Positions 3,231-32,275 of a stretch of DNA of 49,039 bases are shown in pieces. The stretch's first letter is position 1. Every line of letters starts with the position of its first letter. The notes below the pieces were generated by a model. It worked only from the letters and a program-made list of their open reading frames with translations, was not told the DNA's origin and made no database searches. The position numbers and the translations under genes are program-made. This DNA is from an uncultured Opitutia bacterium (GTDB lineage: Bacteria > Verrucomicrobiota > Verrucomicrobiia > Opitutales > Opitutaceae), in contig CAIONS010000022.1 of the NCBI GenBank assembly GCA_903859715.1, forward strand, positions 1-49,039, written 5' to 3'.

Positions 3231-3259
3231 GGGACGTCTTCAGCCCCGATTGTCCCAGC

Positions 3260-3356
3260 GGTTGTCATTCTGAGCGTAGCGAAGAATCCAGTGAGATTCC
3301 GCTGCGAGCTTTGATCATATCCAATTGGATTCTTCACTTCGTTCAGAATGACAACC
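3260..3356. repeat. Long inverted repeat, TGTCATTCTGAGCG family
   Basis: Arms 3260-3290 and 3326-3356 match in 28 of 31 positions as an inverted repeat, with a 35-base spacer. The arm core TGTCATTCTGAGCG plus GCGAAGAAT recurs at 17261-17289. It lies between the 3' ends of two convergent genes, so it may end transcription from both sides or act as a REP-like element. Apart from it, the 3231-3390 gap shows nothing. Confidence 0.8.
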
Positions 3357-3390
3357 GTTGAGTCTCCTGGATCGCGTCCTCCGCAGCGCA

Positions 3391-10070: not shown

Positions 10071-10132
10071 GTAGGGCGGGTCTCCGACCCGCCTTTTGAA
10101 TGTCCGAAAGGCAGGTCAAAGACCTGCCCTAC
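10071..10132. repeat. Four-arm GTAGGGCGGG repeat element
   Basis: Two small hairpins, GGCGGGTC-TCC-GACCCGCC (10075-10093) and GGCAGGTC-AAA-GACCTGCC (10110-10128), sit inside one larger inverted repeat (GTAGGGCGGGTC at 10071-10082 against 10121-10132, 11 of 12). The same design recurs at 25688-25748, with relatives at 22356-22443 and 21046-21108. It lies in the divergent gap between modE and the mod operon. No ModE-box-like sequence was seen beside it. Confidence 0.8.
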
Positions 10133-14603: not shown

Positions 14604-14705
14604 TTAACCGCGAAGGACGCGAAGAGCGCAAAGTTCGGAGCAAGCCAGAATAAGTCGACTTCGGATTGAGTCTGGCTTCGCGCTCTTTGCGTCCTTCGCG
14701 GTTAA
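14604..14705. repeat. Long inverted repeat, CGCGAAGGACGC family
   Basis: Arms 14604-14633 and 14676-14705 match in 28 of 30 positions as an inverted repeat (arm begins TTAACCGCGAAGGACGC). It fills the gap between the aldolase/dehydrogenase gene and the alpha-mannosidase gene on the same strand, and could attenuate or end transcription between them. Confidence 0.82.
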
Positions 14706-21045: not shown

Positions 21046-21108
21046 GTAGGGCGAATCCTCCGGATGAACCGCTGGGGTGCGCAGCTCGTCGCGGACGACC
21101 CGCCCTAC
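21046..21108. repeat. Degenerate GTAGGGCG repeat element
   Basis: The ends GTAGGGCG (21046-21053) and CGCCCTAC (21101-21108) are exact inverted arms around a less ordered interior. It is a worn member of the family seen at 10071, 22356 and 25688. It lies between a glycosidase-like gene and E1-alpha. Confidence 0.68.
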
Positions 21109-21137: not shown

Positions 21138-22337
21138 TCAGCCGCCCAACACGAACCGGTGGACGATACGGATGAAGTTGGCGGGATATTCGCAGTAGGT
21201 GTTGATGAGATAGCTGCCGAGATCGCCGCTGCGCTCGGAGTAATAGCGTTCCCGCCAGTACCAGTTGTTGGCCCGGCCGACGCGCGCCACCTGCCGCAGC
21301 GATTCGAGCACACCTTCGCGGTCGCCCATCACCGAGCGCGCCCACGCCTCGAGATACCAGACCCGGCCCATCGCCGCCGTGTCATGGCGGTCGAGGAACA
21401 TCATCTCCCAGTCCTCGTAGGTCTCCGGCCGTGTAGAGATGCCGGTGGGAATCCCATTGTAGACGAAGTCCCGGTTGGCGCGCAGTTGCGGCCAGAGGAC
21501 CTTGACCTGCTCCGGCGTCGCCGTGCCAGTGGCGATGGCGGCCCAGTCCACATCCGTCAGGCCGTGGGACGAGATCGCGCCGTGCTTCGGATGGATGTAT
21601 TCCACGCAATGATCGCCGGCCCAGAATTTTTGCCGGAAACACGCGGTGATCCGGTCCGCGACCATCCCGTAGGCCTGGTCACCCGTCAGCCGGGCTGCCA
21701 TCCGCAGGGCGTCGGCCGTGTAGCATTGGGTAACCCCGTCATGATCGAGCCGCGGCGGCCGCTCCACATAATAGCCGCCGCCGCGGACGAGTCCCGCGGG
21801 AGTCACCTGCTTCACGAGCCAGTCCGTCACATGGGACAAGGCCGGGAGCTGGGCCGTCAGCCATGCCTGGTCCCGCGTCTGCCGGAAGATAACGTCGGCC
21901 ATCTGGATGAACGTGACGTTGGCCAGCACCATCAGCGGGTTGCCGGGAAACCAGTGCGAATACACGCCGCCGTTGGCGGCCATGACCAGGGGGAATTTCT
22001 CCTCCGTCTGCGGCAGGCCCATGTAGATCGTCTTGCCCGCGTCGCTGGGGATGATCGCAAACGGCAGCAGGCCGTCCTCGCGCAGGAACGACTTCACGTA
22101 CTCCCAGCTCGCCAGCACCTCGTCCCGGCGGCCGAGCCACAGCAGCGCCTCGGCGGACTGGCCCCAGTCCAAGCCGGGGAATGTCGTGTTGCTGCCATGG
22201 CCCTGAGTGGGATCGGCGCAGACGGAGAAATAGCCGAAGAAGATCTTCGGGTTCAGGGCCGCGAGGAGGCTCTTGTCGGCGCACTGGCGGTAGGCCTCGG
22301 CCAATTCAGGTTCCAGCTGGGAGGGAGCGGTGGTCAT
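21138..22337 (-). CDS. (alpha/alpha)6-barrel glycosidase-like protein
   Basis: A 399-residue protein without signal peptide. Repeating helix pairs and motifs such as FPGLDWGQSAEALLWLG, NGGVYSHWFPGNPLMVLANV and YTADALRMAARLTGD look like a six-hairpin glycosidase core. No family-specific catalytic pair could be fixed with confidence. It starts eight bases after the larger glycosidase gene, so the two probably act together on one glycan. It could instead be a non-catalytic or lyase-type barrel. Confidence 0.6.
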   Translation of the reverse strand: MTTAPSQLEPELAEAYRQCADKSLLAALNPKIFFGYFSVCADPTQGHGSNTTFPGLDWGQSAEALLWLGRRDEVLASWEYVKSFLREDGLLPFAIIPSDAGKTIYMGLPQTEEKFPLVMAANGGVYSHWFPGNPLMVLANVTFIQMADVIFRQTRDQAWLTAQLPALSHVTDWLVKQVTPAGLVRGGGYYVERPPRLDHDGVTQCYTADALRMAARLTGDQAYGMVADRITACFRQKFWAGDHCVEYIHPKHGAISSHGLTDVDWAAIATGTATPEQVKVLWPQLRANRDFVYNGIPTGISTRPETYEDWEMMFLDRHDTAAMGRVWYLEAWARSVMGDREGVLESLRQVARVGRANNWYWRERYYSERSGDLGSYLINTYCEYPANFIRIVHRFVLGG

Positions 22338-22345
22338 GGGAAATT

Positions 22346-24814
22346 TTATCTGGCTGTAGGGCGGGATCGCTGACCCCGCCTTGTCTTTCTTGCCTTGCTT
22401 GAATCCAGCGACGTTCGCGGCGGGGTCGGCGACCCCGCCCTACATTTCGTTCGGACGAGTTCGCCGGCGGGGATGGAAAATTCAGCCACGACCTGGCCGC
22501 TCGCGCGCTCGATCAACCGGGCTTTCCCCGCCGTGTCTGCCGCCGCCAGCACCTCGCGGCCGGCGACCAGCCAGAAAACAGGCGCATCGCTCTCGAGGCG
22601 GTAGGCTTCCTGGCGCTCCGCGGAAACGACGACCTGCTTCCATTTCGTGGTGACGCGCGTGGTCGTGTAGAGCGTTTTCCCGGCGCGGACCGCGAGCAAG
22701 GACAGCGGCGCGCCGCGATACGGCAGCCGCGAGATCGCCGCCCAGCCCCAGCCGGTCGGCAGGGTCGGATTCACTTCGAGTCCCTCGGCATGAGGCGTGA
22801 GCCCGAGCAGGCCCTCGTAGGCCGTCCACAGGTAGCTGCCGTGGATGAACGTGCTGCGCGGGTGTCCGCGCTGCAGCAGGTCATCGCCGTTAAAGTATTC
22901 CGGGAATTCACCGGGTGTGACGTTGCAGCGGTCGAAATCCGGCCGATCCGCCAATCGCCGGGTGCTGTGGAGCGCCTGCACGATGAGATCGGGCAGGCCG
23001 ACATCCGCCGCGGCGCGCGCTGCCCACAAGGCGAGGTTCGGCCATACCCCGCCCTGCAGTCCGTAAGTGGCGGGATCGGCTTTCGCCACGTACCCCTTTT
23101 GCTCAGGCGTAATCGTGCGCATCCCACCCGGGCCGGCCGGAGCGCCCAGCCAGAACGGCGGGCTGAACAGCTTTTCGAGGATGGCGCGCGCCGTAGCGCG
23201 CGGCGCCACGCCGAACAGCGCGGGAAACAGCAGGTCACCCGTGAGATCATCCACGCGCCGGCCATCCGGGTTGATCATCAGGAGATAAAACGGATTGTGC
23301 GCTGACGTGGAGCGCAGGTGGCGGTTGATCGCGCCGTGCAGGTCGTCCGCGGCGGCGCGGAGCCGCACCGCGTTGCGGCGGTCTCCCGTCGCCTCCGCGA
23401 GTTCGGCCGTGAGCAGTAGCGCGCGGTAGCACTCGCCGTTAATCTCGGTGACCGCGCCGGAGAGCTGGTAATTGCCCGTGCAGTTCCGCCAGCCGCAGAG
23501 CCCGCGCACAAACATGTCCCGCGACCGGCACCAGACGAGCCCGGCGTCGTTGCGCTGGGCCAGGATGTAATTCGCGGAACGCAGCAGCGCGGAATATACC
23601 GAGTCGAGAAAGCCGCGGTCACCCGACAGCGCATAGTAATGATGCGCGGCGATCAGCAGGAGCGGCGTGTTGTCATTGATGTTGAGCCCGTAGTCGTCGC
23701 GAAACAACGGCTCGCTCGACGCCAGCAGATACTCGATCGATTTTCCATTGGGCTCCATCCCTTCGCGAAACCAGAAGTCGAGCAGCCGGCGCGACCAGCC
23801 CTGCGCATAGTAATCGGTGCCGGCCAAGAACCAGAACGTGTCGCGCCCGACCAGCACATCGGACGGCGGGCAGTTGCTGAAACCGGGACCGCGGCGGTAC
23901 TCCTGCCAGTCCTTCAGCTGGTTGATCTTCGCCCAGTGCACGCCGCCGTTGAGGAACGCGTCGGGCGTCCAGAGCCGGCAGGTGTCGAGGTGTCCTTGGA
24001 TCGCATGCGCCGTCTCGTCTGCAATGACATGCAGCCGGCGCAGATGGCTGGCCGGGCTGCCGGCGTCGGCCGTGAAAACCTCGTCCACCGCGCCCACGGG
24101 GGCCGAGCCTCCCGGAGCATAAGCAAAGGACAGCCCGCACTCGCGGCCGCCGGCCCAGGCGAACTCCGCGATACATTCCGTCCGCCCTTCCGCCGCCGGC
24201 TGGAAGGCAAATGAAAGCACGCTGCCGCTGCCCCAGAGCACGCCGGTGACATGGTTTGCGTAATGAATCGCAAGATAACGGTGCCCGCCCTGCTCGGCCT
24301 CGGACACTTTCGCGCCCGGCGGCAGCATGAGATGCGTCCGCACCATAGTGGCCGCCAGCGGTGTCGCGGCCGTGAACAGATAATGCGCCGAGCGCAGGTG
24401 GTTATTCTCGAAAGGAAGGATGAAGCGTTTGGCGACCGTCACCTTGCCCTGGCGCAACGTGGTCGTCTGGCCATCGGGCGCGAGGGTGGTCTCCACCGGA
24501 AGGTACGCCCCGCCCTCCGCTCCGACCAGCTCCACCTGCCAGCCCAACAGATAATACTGCTGGTCCCGCGCGTCGCGCAGCCCCAGCCGCGCTGTCCCGG
24601 GCTCGCTGATCACGTCGGAGTTGCGGTCGAGCGTGACGTAGACCTGCGCGTTGCCAAACGAATGACCGCGTTTCAGGCGTTCGACCGGGAAGGTGTAGCT
24701 GAGCCGGGGGTCTGGACGCGTGACCGTAGCAGCCGACGTGAGGAGGCTGGGCTTGGCCGCTCCACTCAAGCCAGCCTCCTTACGTCGGCTGCTACGATTG
24801 GTCTCTTGCTTCAT
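22346..24814 (-). CDS. Glycogen-debranching-like six-hairpin glycosidase with repeat-coded ends
   Basis: An 822-residue cytoplasmic protein: an N-terminal beta-sandwich (about 30-270) and an (alpha/alpha)6 barrel (about 290-700) with GFSNCPPSDVLVGRDTFWFLAGTDYYAQ, NINDNTPLLLIAAHHY and TEINGECYRALLLTAELAE, plus a C-terminal sheet. This is the layout of amylo-1,6-glucosidase-like and rhamnosidase-like clans; the exact family is open. Residues from about 6 to 30 are read from the palindromic repeat at 24725-24796, and about the last 30 residues from the repeat at 22356-22443. The start ATG 24814 lies 15 bases after copy 3 of PhyH; a GTG at 24826 would add four codons. Confidence 0.72.
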   Translation of the reverse strand: MKQETNRSSRRKEAGLSGAAKPSLLTSAATVTRPDPRLSYTFPVERLKRGHSFGNAQVYVTLDRNSDVISEPGTARLGLRDARDQQYYLLGWQVELVGAEGGAYLPVETTLAPDGQTTTLRQGKVTVAKRFILPFENNHLRSAHYLFTAATPLAATMVRTHLMLPPGAKVSEAEQGGHRYLAIHYANHVTGVLWGSGSVLSFAFQPAAEGRTECIAEFAWAGGRECGLSFAYAPGGSAPVGAVDEVFTADAGSPASHLRRLHVIADETAHAIQGHLDTCRLWTPDAFLNGGVHWAKINQLKDWQEYRRGPGFSNCPPSDVLVGRDTFWFLAGTDYYAQGWSRRLLDFWFREGMEPNGKSIEYLLASSEPLFRDDYGLNINDNTPLLLIAAHHYYALSGDRGFLDSVYSALLRSANYILAQRNDAGLVWCRSRDMFVRGLCGWRNCTGNYQLSGAVTEINGECYRALLLTAELAEATGDRRNAVRLRAAADDLHGAINRHLRSTSAHNPFYLLMINPDGRRVDDLTGDLLFPALFGVAPRATARAILEKLFSPPFWLGAPAGPGGMRTITPEQKGYVAKADPATYGLQGGVWPNLALWAARAAADVGLPDLIVQALHSTRRLADRPDFDRCNVTPGEFPEYFNGDDLLQRGHPRSTFIHGSYLWTAYEGLLGLTPHAEGLEVNPTLPTGWGWAAISRLPYRGAPLSLLAVRAGKTLYTTTRVTTKWKQVVVSAERQEAYRLESDAPVFWLVAGREVLAAADTAGKARLIERASGQVVAEFSIPAGELVRTKCRAGSPTPPRTSLDSSKARKTRRGQRSRPTAR
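22356..22443. repeat. GTAGGGCGGG repeat inside the glycosidase 3' end
   Basis: GTAGGGCGGG and CCCCGCC make one hairpin at 22356-22380; GGCGGGGTCGGCGACCCCGCC makes another at 22419-22439; the outer ends GTAGGGC and GCCCTAC pair. It is read through in frame, adding an Arg/Pro/Ser-rich tail to the glycosidase, which stops at 22346 just beyond the element. Confidence 0.78.
24725..24796. repeat. CGTAGCAGCCGACG inverted repeat inside the glycosidase 5' end
   Basis: Arms 24725-24750 and 24771-24796 match in 25 of 26 positions (arm begins CGTAGCAGCCGACGT). It lies wholly inside the reading frame of the glycosidase, near codons 6-30, and has no stop in that frame. A solitary half copy stands at 32250-32275. 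Confidence 0.85.
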
Positions 24815-24829
24815 CGGCGTGGGCACGTC

Positions 24830-25630
24830 TCAGGCCGTGTGCACCGGCTCGCCGCCGCGGTACGACTTGGTCGGGTCGGCGTATTTATTGCCCGCGCGGT
24901 CCTGCCCGCGCGCCAGGTAGATGTTGAATTTCGCCGCGGCGAAGTGCGGATGATTCTCCGGGGTGAACTTCACCGTCGCCGGAAAATAGCGCACCGTCAG
25001 CACGGCGCGGCGCGTGGATCCGGTGTTGGGATTCGAGCCGTGGATGATCTTGCCGTGATGGATCGACGCCTCGTTGGGCTGCAGGTCGATGTCGACGGCC
25101 TTGGTCTCGTCCATCTGCGCCTTCTGGATCTCGATCGGAAACACCTCCTTGTCGGGCCGGGCGACATCCGCGTAATCCGAGTAACCGTGCCGCTGCGTAC
25201 CCGGAATCACGCGCAGGCAGCCATTCGCCGGCAGCGAGGGCTCGAGTGCCAGCGTGATCGAGGCCACCTCCATCGGAGTCAGGGCCCCCTTCCAATACGC
25301 CGAATCCTCATGCCATGGCACGCGCTTGCCGACCGCGGCGGGCTTTTGCAACAGGTGGCAGGCGAACACGCCGATGTCCGGCCCGATGAGCGGCTCCACC
25401 AGGTCAAGCATCTCCGGAGCGAAGATCCACTCGAACATGCGCGGATCGGCCCAGTGGGGACAATCGATGATGGCAGGCACCTCCGCGCCTTTGTTAGCCT
25501 CGGCGAACTTCCCGGCACAAAACGCCTGCACGCGGGAAAATTTCTCGGGCGAAAAAACCGGCTGGTGCAGGATCAGGTAGCCGTCGCGGTCGTAGCGTTT
25601 AACCAGATCCGGGGTGACGATGGAAGGCAT
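24830..25630 (-). CDS. PhyH-family Fe(II)/2-oxoglutarate oxygenase (copy 3)
   Basis: A 266-residue PhyH-like protein. WHEDSAYW gives the metal His and Asp, IIHGSNPNTGS the distal His, and RRAVLTVRY the cosubstrate Arg. It resembles copy 1 in the NGCLRVIPGTQ block and overall length, and differs from copy 2. It heads a three-gene group with the two barrel glycosidases, downstream of the E2 gene and a palindromic repeat. Oxidation or O-demethylation of a sugar derivative is a possible role that only context suggests. Confidence 0.87.
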   Translation of the reverse strand: MPSIVTPDLVKRYDRDGYLILHQPVFSPEKFSRVQAFCAGKFAEANKGAEVPAIIDCPHWADPRMFEWIFAPEMLDLVEPLIGPDIGVFACHLLQKPAAVGKRVPWHEDSAYWKGALTPMEVASITLALEPSLPANGCLRVIPGTQRHGYSDYADVARPDKEVFPIEIQKAQMDETKAVDIDLQPNEASIHHGKIIHGSNPNTGSTRRAVLTVRYFPATVKFTPENHPHFAAAKFNIYLARGQDRAGNKYADPTKSYRGGEPVHTA

Positions 25631-25687: not shown

Positions 25688-25748
25688 GTAGGGCAGGTCT
25701 TTGACCTGCCCTCAGCGGCTCAGAGGGCGGGTCAAAGACCCGCCCTAC
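25688..25748. repeat. Four-arm GTAGGGCAGG repeat element
   Basis: Reading along: GTAGGGCAGGTC-TTT-GACCTGCCCT, then 11 bases, then AGGGCGGGTC-AAA-GACCCGCCCTAC. Each half is a near-perfect hairpin and the halves are also inverted copies of each other. It separates the E2 gene from PhyH copy 3. It is the best-preserved member of the family. Confidence 0.85.
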
Positions 25749-32249: not shown

Positions 32250-32275
32250 CCAGCCTCCTCACGTCAGCTGCTGCG
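32250..32275. repeat. Solitary half copy of the CGTAGCAGC repeat
   Basis: These 26 bases match 24771-24796, the right arm of the repeat inside the glycosidase gene, in 23 of 26 positions. No left arm lies nearby. It sits in the 70-base gap between the convergent ADOP and RND genes. Confidence 0.7.

Follow-up and report, generated by a model that had tools for sequence, protein, structure and literature searches.

The text of a 2013 survey (PMC3733652) describes intragenic GTAG REPs (repetitive extragenic palindromes), of which Opitutus terrae has the most, with two in some of its ORFs. Dimers or groups of these repeats code for 20–30 residues. According to the same text, many of the N-terminal cases may be false, as translation possibly begins downstream of the repeat, and the use of the TAG of GTAG as a stop codon is already reported (section 15). 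Rickettsia palindromic elements (RPEs), which are likewise palindromes lying in frame within unrelated protein genes, provide a second described system (PMC3733652). A third is formed by the stop-proximal REPs of E. coli, which lower translation (Liang et al. 2015, cited in PMC12306157).

Here, we analyse a window of 49,039 nucleotides (the whole stretch of DNA under study) from a 71-contig draft genome of 3.18 Mb (G000). Two REP pairs of different families very probably inserted independently at tight gene junctions of this window, and would thereby write both ends of one predicted protein. The case is of a kind already described in related bacteria. In common with the O. terrae elements as the text of PMC3733652 presents them, the repeats are short palindromes with a GTAG tag, often occur in opposed pairs, and lie mostly between genes and near 3′ ends. 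Unlike the cases in that text, two different families are involved, one for each protein end, and orthologues free of the insertions are shown. A double-ended protein may already be among the supplementary cases of the survey, and we set the present case apart from the text of the survey alone. The initial annotation had pointed to RPEs as the known parallel, which is apt as to the mode of insertion; the intragenic GTAG REPs of O. terrae are closer (PMC3733652). The 3′ repeat shares a stable hairpin at the gene 3′ end with the E. coli stop-proximal REPs, but differs from the latter, as described in PMC12306157, in that the hairpin precedes the stop and lies within the coding frame. The insertion-free orthologues, the exclusion of a downstream start by sequence, and the persistence of such insertions in a sister species (in purL and ureF) are what is added here, and they make this a clear example, open to checking, of a predicted protein with both ends coded by dispersed hairpin repeats.

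The glycosidase-like gene and its two repeats

The features of the locus are as follows.

22346..24814, minus strand: glycosidase-like ORF, 822 aa from the ATG, with a PF22422 domain and three syntenic orthologues
24812..24814, minus strand: ATG start, upstream of the 5′ repeat and 15 nt past the PhyH stop (17 nt in the orthologue at L010)
24725..24796: family-A GTAG REP pair (5′ repeat), units 24726–24749 (plus) and 24772–24795 (minus), GTAG outward, in frame, residues 7–30
24767..24769, minus strand: TTG, in frame within the 5′ repeat, 5 nt past AAGGAGG; rival start
22356..22443: family-C GTAG REP pair (3′ repeat), units 22356–22380 (plus) and 22419–22443 (minus), in frame within residues 791–822
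22346..22348, minus strand: TAA stop; stop and 3′ flank, TAAAATTTCCCATG, resemble the stop region of the orthologue at L027, TAAATTTCCCATG
24830..25630, minus strand: upstream gene, phytanoyl-CoA dioxygenase family (PhyH), a neighbour also in the three orthologous loci
21138..22337, minus strand: downstream gene, 399 aa, without a Pfam match at 1e-5, likewise adjacent at all three orthologous loci
25688..25748: family-B REP pair at the junction of the acyltransferase (E2) gene and PhyH
21046..21108: REP pair composed of a family-D unit (21046–21066) and a GTAGGGCGGGTC end (21097–21108), at the 399-aa gene–E1 junction

The minus-strand frame runs from ATG 24814 to TAA 22346 with no hidden stop inside, and an additional in-frame GTG is located at 24826. 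Residues 457–642 of the predicted protein match the Pfam profile of the MGH1-like glycoside hydrolase domain (PF22422, E 1.1e-13). Profile matches to GH65 C-terminal and rhamnosidase six-hairpin models are weak and below the cut-off, and the sequence weakly resembles cellobiose phosphorylases and a putative rhamnosidase. The protein is probably to be named no further than "glycosidase-like". It includes the stretch EAGLSGAAKPSLLTSAATVTR and the tail CRAGSPTPPR. An AlphaFold2 model of the protein, made with three sequences, has a mean pLDDT of 41.5, which is too poor for placing the tails or comparing folds.

Both units of the 5′ repeat match the family-A pattern GTAGCAGCCGACGTNAGGAGGCTG exactly, and the peptide coded by the pair is RSSRRKEAGLSGAAKPSLLTSAAT. 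The RNA is predicted to fold far better than shuffled sequence (z −6.1 against 200 shuffles). The crossing of this inverted repeat by the frame had been proposed for about codons 6–30, in agreement with the residues found. Just three in-frame ATG, GTG, or TTG codons precede the conserved core, namely GTG 24826, ATG 24814, and TTG 24769, the last of which lies inside the repeat. Downstream of these, the first in-frame start codon is GTG 24613, which falls within the core, after the conserved block RL.YTF...RLKRGH..GNA.VY..LD. The initial annotation regarded translation from downstream of the 5′ repeat as evidence against its reading; an ATG, GTG, or TTG there would cost conserved core. Because TTG 24769 is the sole start codon from the 5′ repeat up to the core and itself lies inside the repeat, any translation of the gene from an ATG, GTG, or TTG would include some repeat-coded residues. 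In this respect, the gene differs from the doubtful N-terminal cases of O. terrae in the text of PMC3733652, as no start codon separates the 5′ copy from the conserved core. We infer that ATG 24814 serves as the start.

At the other end, the family-C pattern GTAGGGCGGGGTCGCNGACCCCGCC is matched with one mismatch by unit 22356–22380 and with none by unit 22419–22443. Residues 791–822, mostly coded by the 3′ repeat, read CRAGSPTPPRTSLDSSKARKTRRGQRSRPTAR, and the predicted RNA fold has a z of −7.0 against 200 shuffles. The initial annotation, which let this repeat span about the last 30 codons, is borne out by a pair lying within the final 32 residues. The 3′ copy stands in another phase (AAA TGT AGG GCG), so that the TAG of its GTAG is not read as a stop and the frame continues to the TAA behind it. 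This TAA is the first stop behind the repeat, and none occurs before. Given the likeness of the stop and its flank to the L027 stop region, the TAA is probably native, that is, the original stop of the gene.

Orthologous loci free of the repeats

Orthologues were searched for in 100 family genomes, 12 genus genomes, and 252 family genomes, with our own genome counted in each set. Full-length orthologues are present in 3/251 other family genomes: G103 (locus L026), G102 (L027), and G065 (L010), with 73%, 69%, and 66% identity to the window protein, respectively. A scan of named genomes places L026 in Verrucomicrobia MAG RYN_614 and L027 in RYN_616, whose letters are identical to those of G103 and G102 over the shared stretch. 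Weak partial matches in 12 other family genomes (E 1.7e-7 to 7.5e-4) were set aside as distant relatives.

The orthologous proteins have 768–778 residues and contain neither repeat-coded peptide. At all three loci the gene order is kept, with PhyH upstream of the orthologue and the 399-aa gene downstream. At up to four mismatches, no family-A, -B, or -C element is found in the gene or its junctions at these loci, and family D is absent there too. Elsewhere in L026, there is one weak B-like match (four mismatches). The alignment that the initial annotation proposed thus places both segments on the lineage-specific side, and palindrome-free orthologues with the same end peptides, which it held would argue against insertion, are not what L010, L026, and L027 present.

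The orthologues begin with M(S/T/K)...SRL.YTF and end with VRKKLSLRR, VRKKMSRKARP, or VRAKLWAKPARRSRSAAK; their tails are likewise short and basic. By this comparison, a basic C-terminus is old, and the repeat-coded residues are new. Among the orthologues, the N-terminal eight or so residues and the final 5–14 vary, and therefore the exact empty site is unreadable. A genome search of the sister genome, G107, gives no match to the glycosidase gene, which makes fine dating of the insertions impossible. Arrival of the repeats together with the gene was considered and is unsupported, since the three orthologues are without them.

REPs occupy four successive junctions of the operon: E2–PhyH (family B), PhyH–glycosidase (family A), glycosidase–399-aa gene (family C), and 399-aa gene–E1 (family-D unit). 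Families A–D are absent from the corresponding junctions of the orthologous loci (four each in L026 and L027, two in L010). The 399-aa gene–E1 junction of L026 has a different palindrome-like repeat.

Dispersal, gene positions, and possible mobilisation of the families

Family A has 154 genome matches at up to three mismatches, against none for the reversed-pattern control; three of the matches fall in the window, where 100 shuffles give a mean of 0.00. Family C has 109 matches at up to two mismatches (control, 0) and family B, with the pattern GTAGGGCGGGTCnnnGACCCGCC, has 112 (control, 3), where units of both families are near-palindromic and hence countable on both strands. The initial annotation had listed both gene-borne families outside the gene. 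For family A this stands, with a unit at 32251–32274 (two mismatches), although the copy is a lone unit rather than a pair; the copies at 10071 and 25688 belong instead to the related but distinct family B.

All four units in the gene start with GTAG and have complementary stems. Families A, B, and C are high-copy and dispersed (154, 112, and 109 matches in 3.18 Mb), mostly intergenic, and often arranged in opposed pairs (of 80 family-A clusters, 39 are pairs, and in 37 of these the GTAG tags face outward), as GTAG REPs are. The two pairs in the gene also qualify as intragenic, being in frame and absent from 3/3 orthologues, with their translation deduced from the lack of other start and stop codons.

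To describe REP positions at genes, we counted families A–D in 60 stretches around REP matches and one transposase, in 30 search loci, and in the window, a sample that was chosen around REPs and is non-random. Genes were called with a home-made codon-usage script; clusters within 150 nt of a stretch end were excluded, as were duplicates recognised by flanking sequence. In this sample, 108/125 distinct clusters are intergenic and 13/125 reach into a gene at its 3′ end. Each of these 13 elements starts with GTAG at the gene end; the TAG of this GTAG is the stop codon in 12, and in the remaining one the first G of the REP completes a TAG. Unlike RPEs, which belong to another lineage and are likened to our elements by mode of insertion alone, the clusters lie in or across coding cores in 4/125 cases. 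These four involve three genes, with two in the glycosidase gene: inside the core are the repeats of purL and ureF and the glycosidase 3′ repeat, and across the best-scoring start is the glycosidase 5′ repeat. When a family-A cluster falls within a long ORF, it lies upstream of the best-scoring start or, in the glycosidase gene, across it in 8/10 cases. As coding cases of family A, we accepted only purL (mid-gene), ureF, and the glycosidase gene, with no ATG, GTG, or TTG between repeat and core; the TTG inside the glycosidase 5′ repeat is the exception to this rule.

Both enzymes other than the glycosidase carry family A in frame.

L095:1961-2031 (G000 C33:15260-15330): family-A pair in purL; sister-genome locus L170
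L119:2015-2038 (G000 C63): family-A unit in ureF; sister-genome locus L184

In purL (phosphoribosylformylglycinamidine synthase) of G000, the pair occupies codons 121–144, a stretch that is a gap in the alignment with solved homologues. The gene is present in 12/12 genus genomes, with REP units in G000 and G107 and none in the other 10, whose loop differs in length for other reasons. Between G000 and G107, both arms are unchanged (0/48 nt), while 264/2388 positions of the gene (11%) differ, and 22/2317 segment pairs of the same shape are equally clean. Across the genus, the purL stretch from GYFRTYE to ELRGYHK ranges from 17 to 49 residues (L169–L182), and its long, SHAEDAKNAEGSN-like form may derive from another repeat family. 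The N-terminus of ureF reads MKSARATSIKP-RSSRRKEAGLS-TGTDSYAW, and RSSRRKEAGLS is common to ureF and the glycosidase, which answers the suggestion of the initial annotation to look for the same peptide in other proteins of the genome. Past the ureF repeat, the next in-frame ATG, GTG, or TTG is codon 87, counted from the TTG at L119:2096. The gene is found in 3/12 genus genomes; an in-frame pair stands at this place in G107 and a single in-frame unit in G000, and G015 has none. Family A thus stands in frame in further enzymes and has outlasted a species split, so that sister species can be compared to study what such insertions cost and what becomes of them.

The distribution of family A among family genomes is patchy (31/252 at up to two mismatches, many with few diverged matches), with 143 matches in G000, 120 in G103, 76 in G107, 2 in G102, and 0 in G065. 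Family C has no match in G101, G102, G103, and G105, and 79 in G104. Accordingly, family C is absent from both orthologue holders of the same genus (G102 and G103), and family A is abundant in G103, not at this gene. For repeats of different families with different distributions among the orthologue-holding genomes, the straightforward reading is that each was inserted separately, as the initial annotation had inferred.

Insertion by REP mobilisation, with a RAYT transposase, is plausible. Two Y1_Tnp matches are present in G000. The 4.3-kb stretch around the first lacks family-A, -B, and -C units, and the second, which is short (L059:28-550, at the start of C48), is flanked by two family-D units that share one orientation; in G000, no transposase tied to family A or family C was found. 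In G104, the family-C units C28:17868 and C28:18453 (span to 18477) flank a Y1_Tnp match at C28:18030-18275, and this putative transposase is a candidate mobiliser of family C. The distributions of family A and of Y1_Tnp matches across the genus do not follow each other and speak against a simple link between the two: family A is present in G101 and G105, which have no Y1_Tnp match, and G100, G104, G085, G059, and G015 have Y1_Tnp matches without family A.

Probable insertion at tight junctions and its rivals

REP pairs would settle at gene junctions, and the intergenic gaps, 15 nt from the PhyH stop to the ATG and 8 nt from the glycosidase stop to the next ATG, would offer no room. Insertions would then fall into the first and last codons, with the frame staying open by chance. 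At the 3′ end, the TAG stop that is usual elsewhere would be bypassed through the phase of the copy, and the ribosome would proceed to the TAA. Relative to the orthologues, the protein would gain 28 residues near the N-terminus and 18–27 at the C-terminus. Tight junctions would thus account for the placement at both ends, and the enzyme itself need have nothing special about it. The repeat-coded ends are probably tolerated, loose, neutral tails, and from the conserved core and the open frame we infer an unbroken enzyme that would be made and active.

Translation might instead start at TTG 24769 with the REP-borne AAGGAGG as the ribosome-binding site, in which case about half of the repeat would be coded. 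The motif is 5 nt ahead of this TTG, and the codon-usage score peaks from it. However, AAGGAGG is paired within a very stable predicted hairpin, and AGGAGG belongs to the family-A unit itself. In the 60 stretches and the window, just three units have the motif 5–10 nt from a possible start (within 60 nt), and this is the best-scoring start only in the glycosidase gene. Such motifs are also rare before genes by our own start calls (5/173, against 2 in one shuffle per upstream piece; only genes that scored 40 or more and had a closed 5′ end were counted), and by the same spacing and count REPs have little support as general suppliers of ribosome-binding sites. Moreover, ATG 24814 is placed much like the start of the orthologue at L010, and the TTG start, which we consider very unlikely, would still yield 15 translated repeat residues. 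More improbable still is an artefact of assembly or sequencing, in which the repeats are joins or mask a frameshift. The assembly is a draft that seems to break at family-C units, several of which lie at contig ends, but the flanks of both repeats agree with the orthologue gene order, three of the four units are exact to their family pattern (the fourth has one mismatch), and insertions of this kind occur in purL and ureF, independently seen in two genomes.

The somewhat less remote alternative, though unlikely, is that the repeats are kept for a function, as hairpins that bracket the cistron, slow ribosomes or protect the message, and thereby tune the operon. Consistent with this, E. coli REPs at most 15 nt from a stop codon reportedly stall ribosomes (Liang et al. 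2015, cited by PMC12306157), both hairpins fold far better than shuffles, and the purL arms are unchanged in a diverged gene. Against it, three orthologous loci manage without the repeats, the ureF pair is not whole in G000, and purL is a single conserved case for which gene conversion or chance could suffice. The broader proposal that intragenic REPs of this lineage, in frame and with conserved hairpin arms as in purL, are kept as working parts in ribosome movement or message stability, with the glycosidase gene bracketed by two, we regard as highly doubtful. Independent insertion of the two pairs at tight junctions remains the reading we prefer.

Other repeats accompany families A–D. In G000, family-C units are located within about 150 nt of the ends of contigs C4, C30, C36, C46, C47, and C58, an indication that larger copies carrying family-C units are where the assembly breaks. 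In the window, inverted repeats between genes at 14604–14705 and 3256–3360 are of the ACCGCGAAGGACGCGAAG type and a TCATTCTGAGCG type, and a junction repeat at about 7205–7305 of L026 resembles the ACCGCGAAGGACGCGAAG type.
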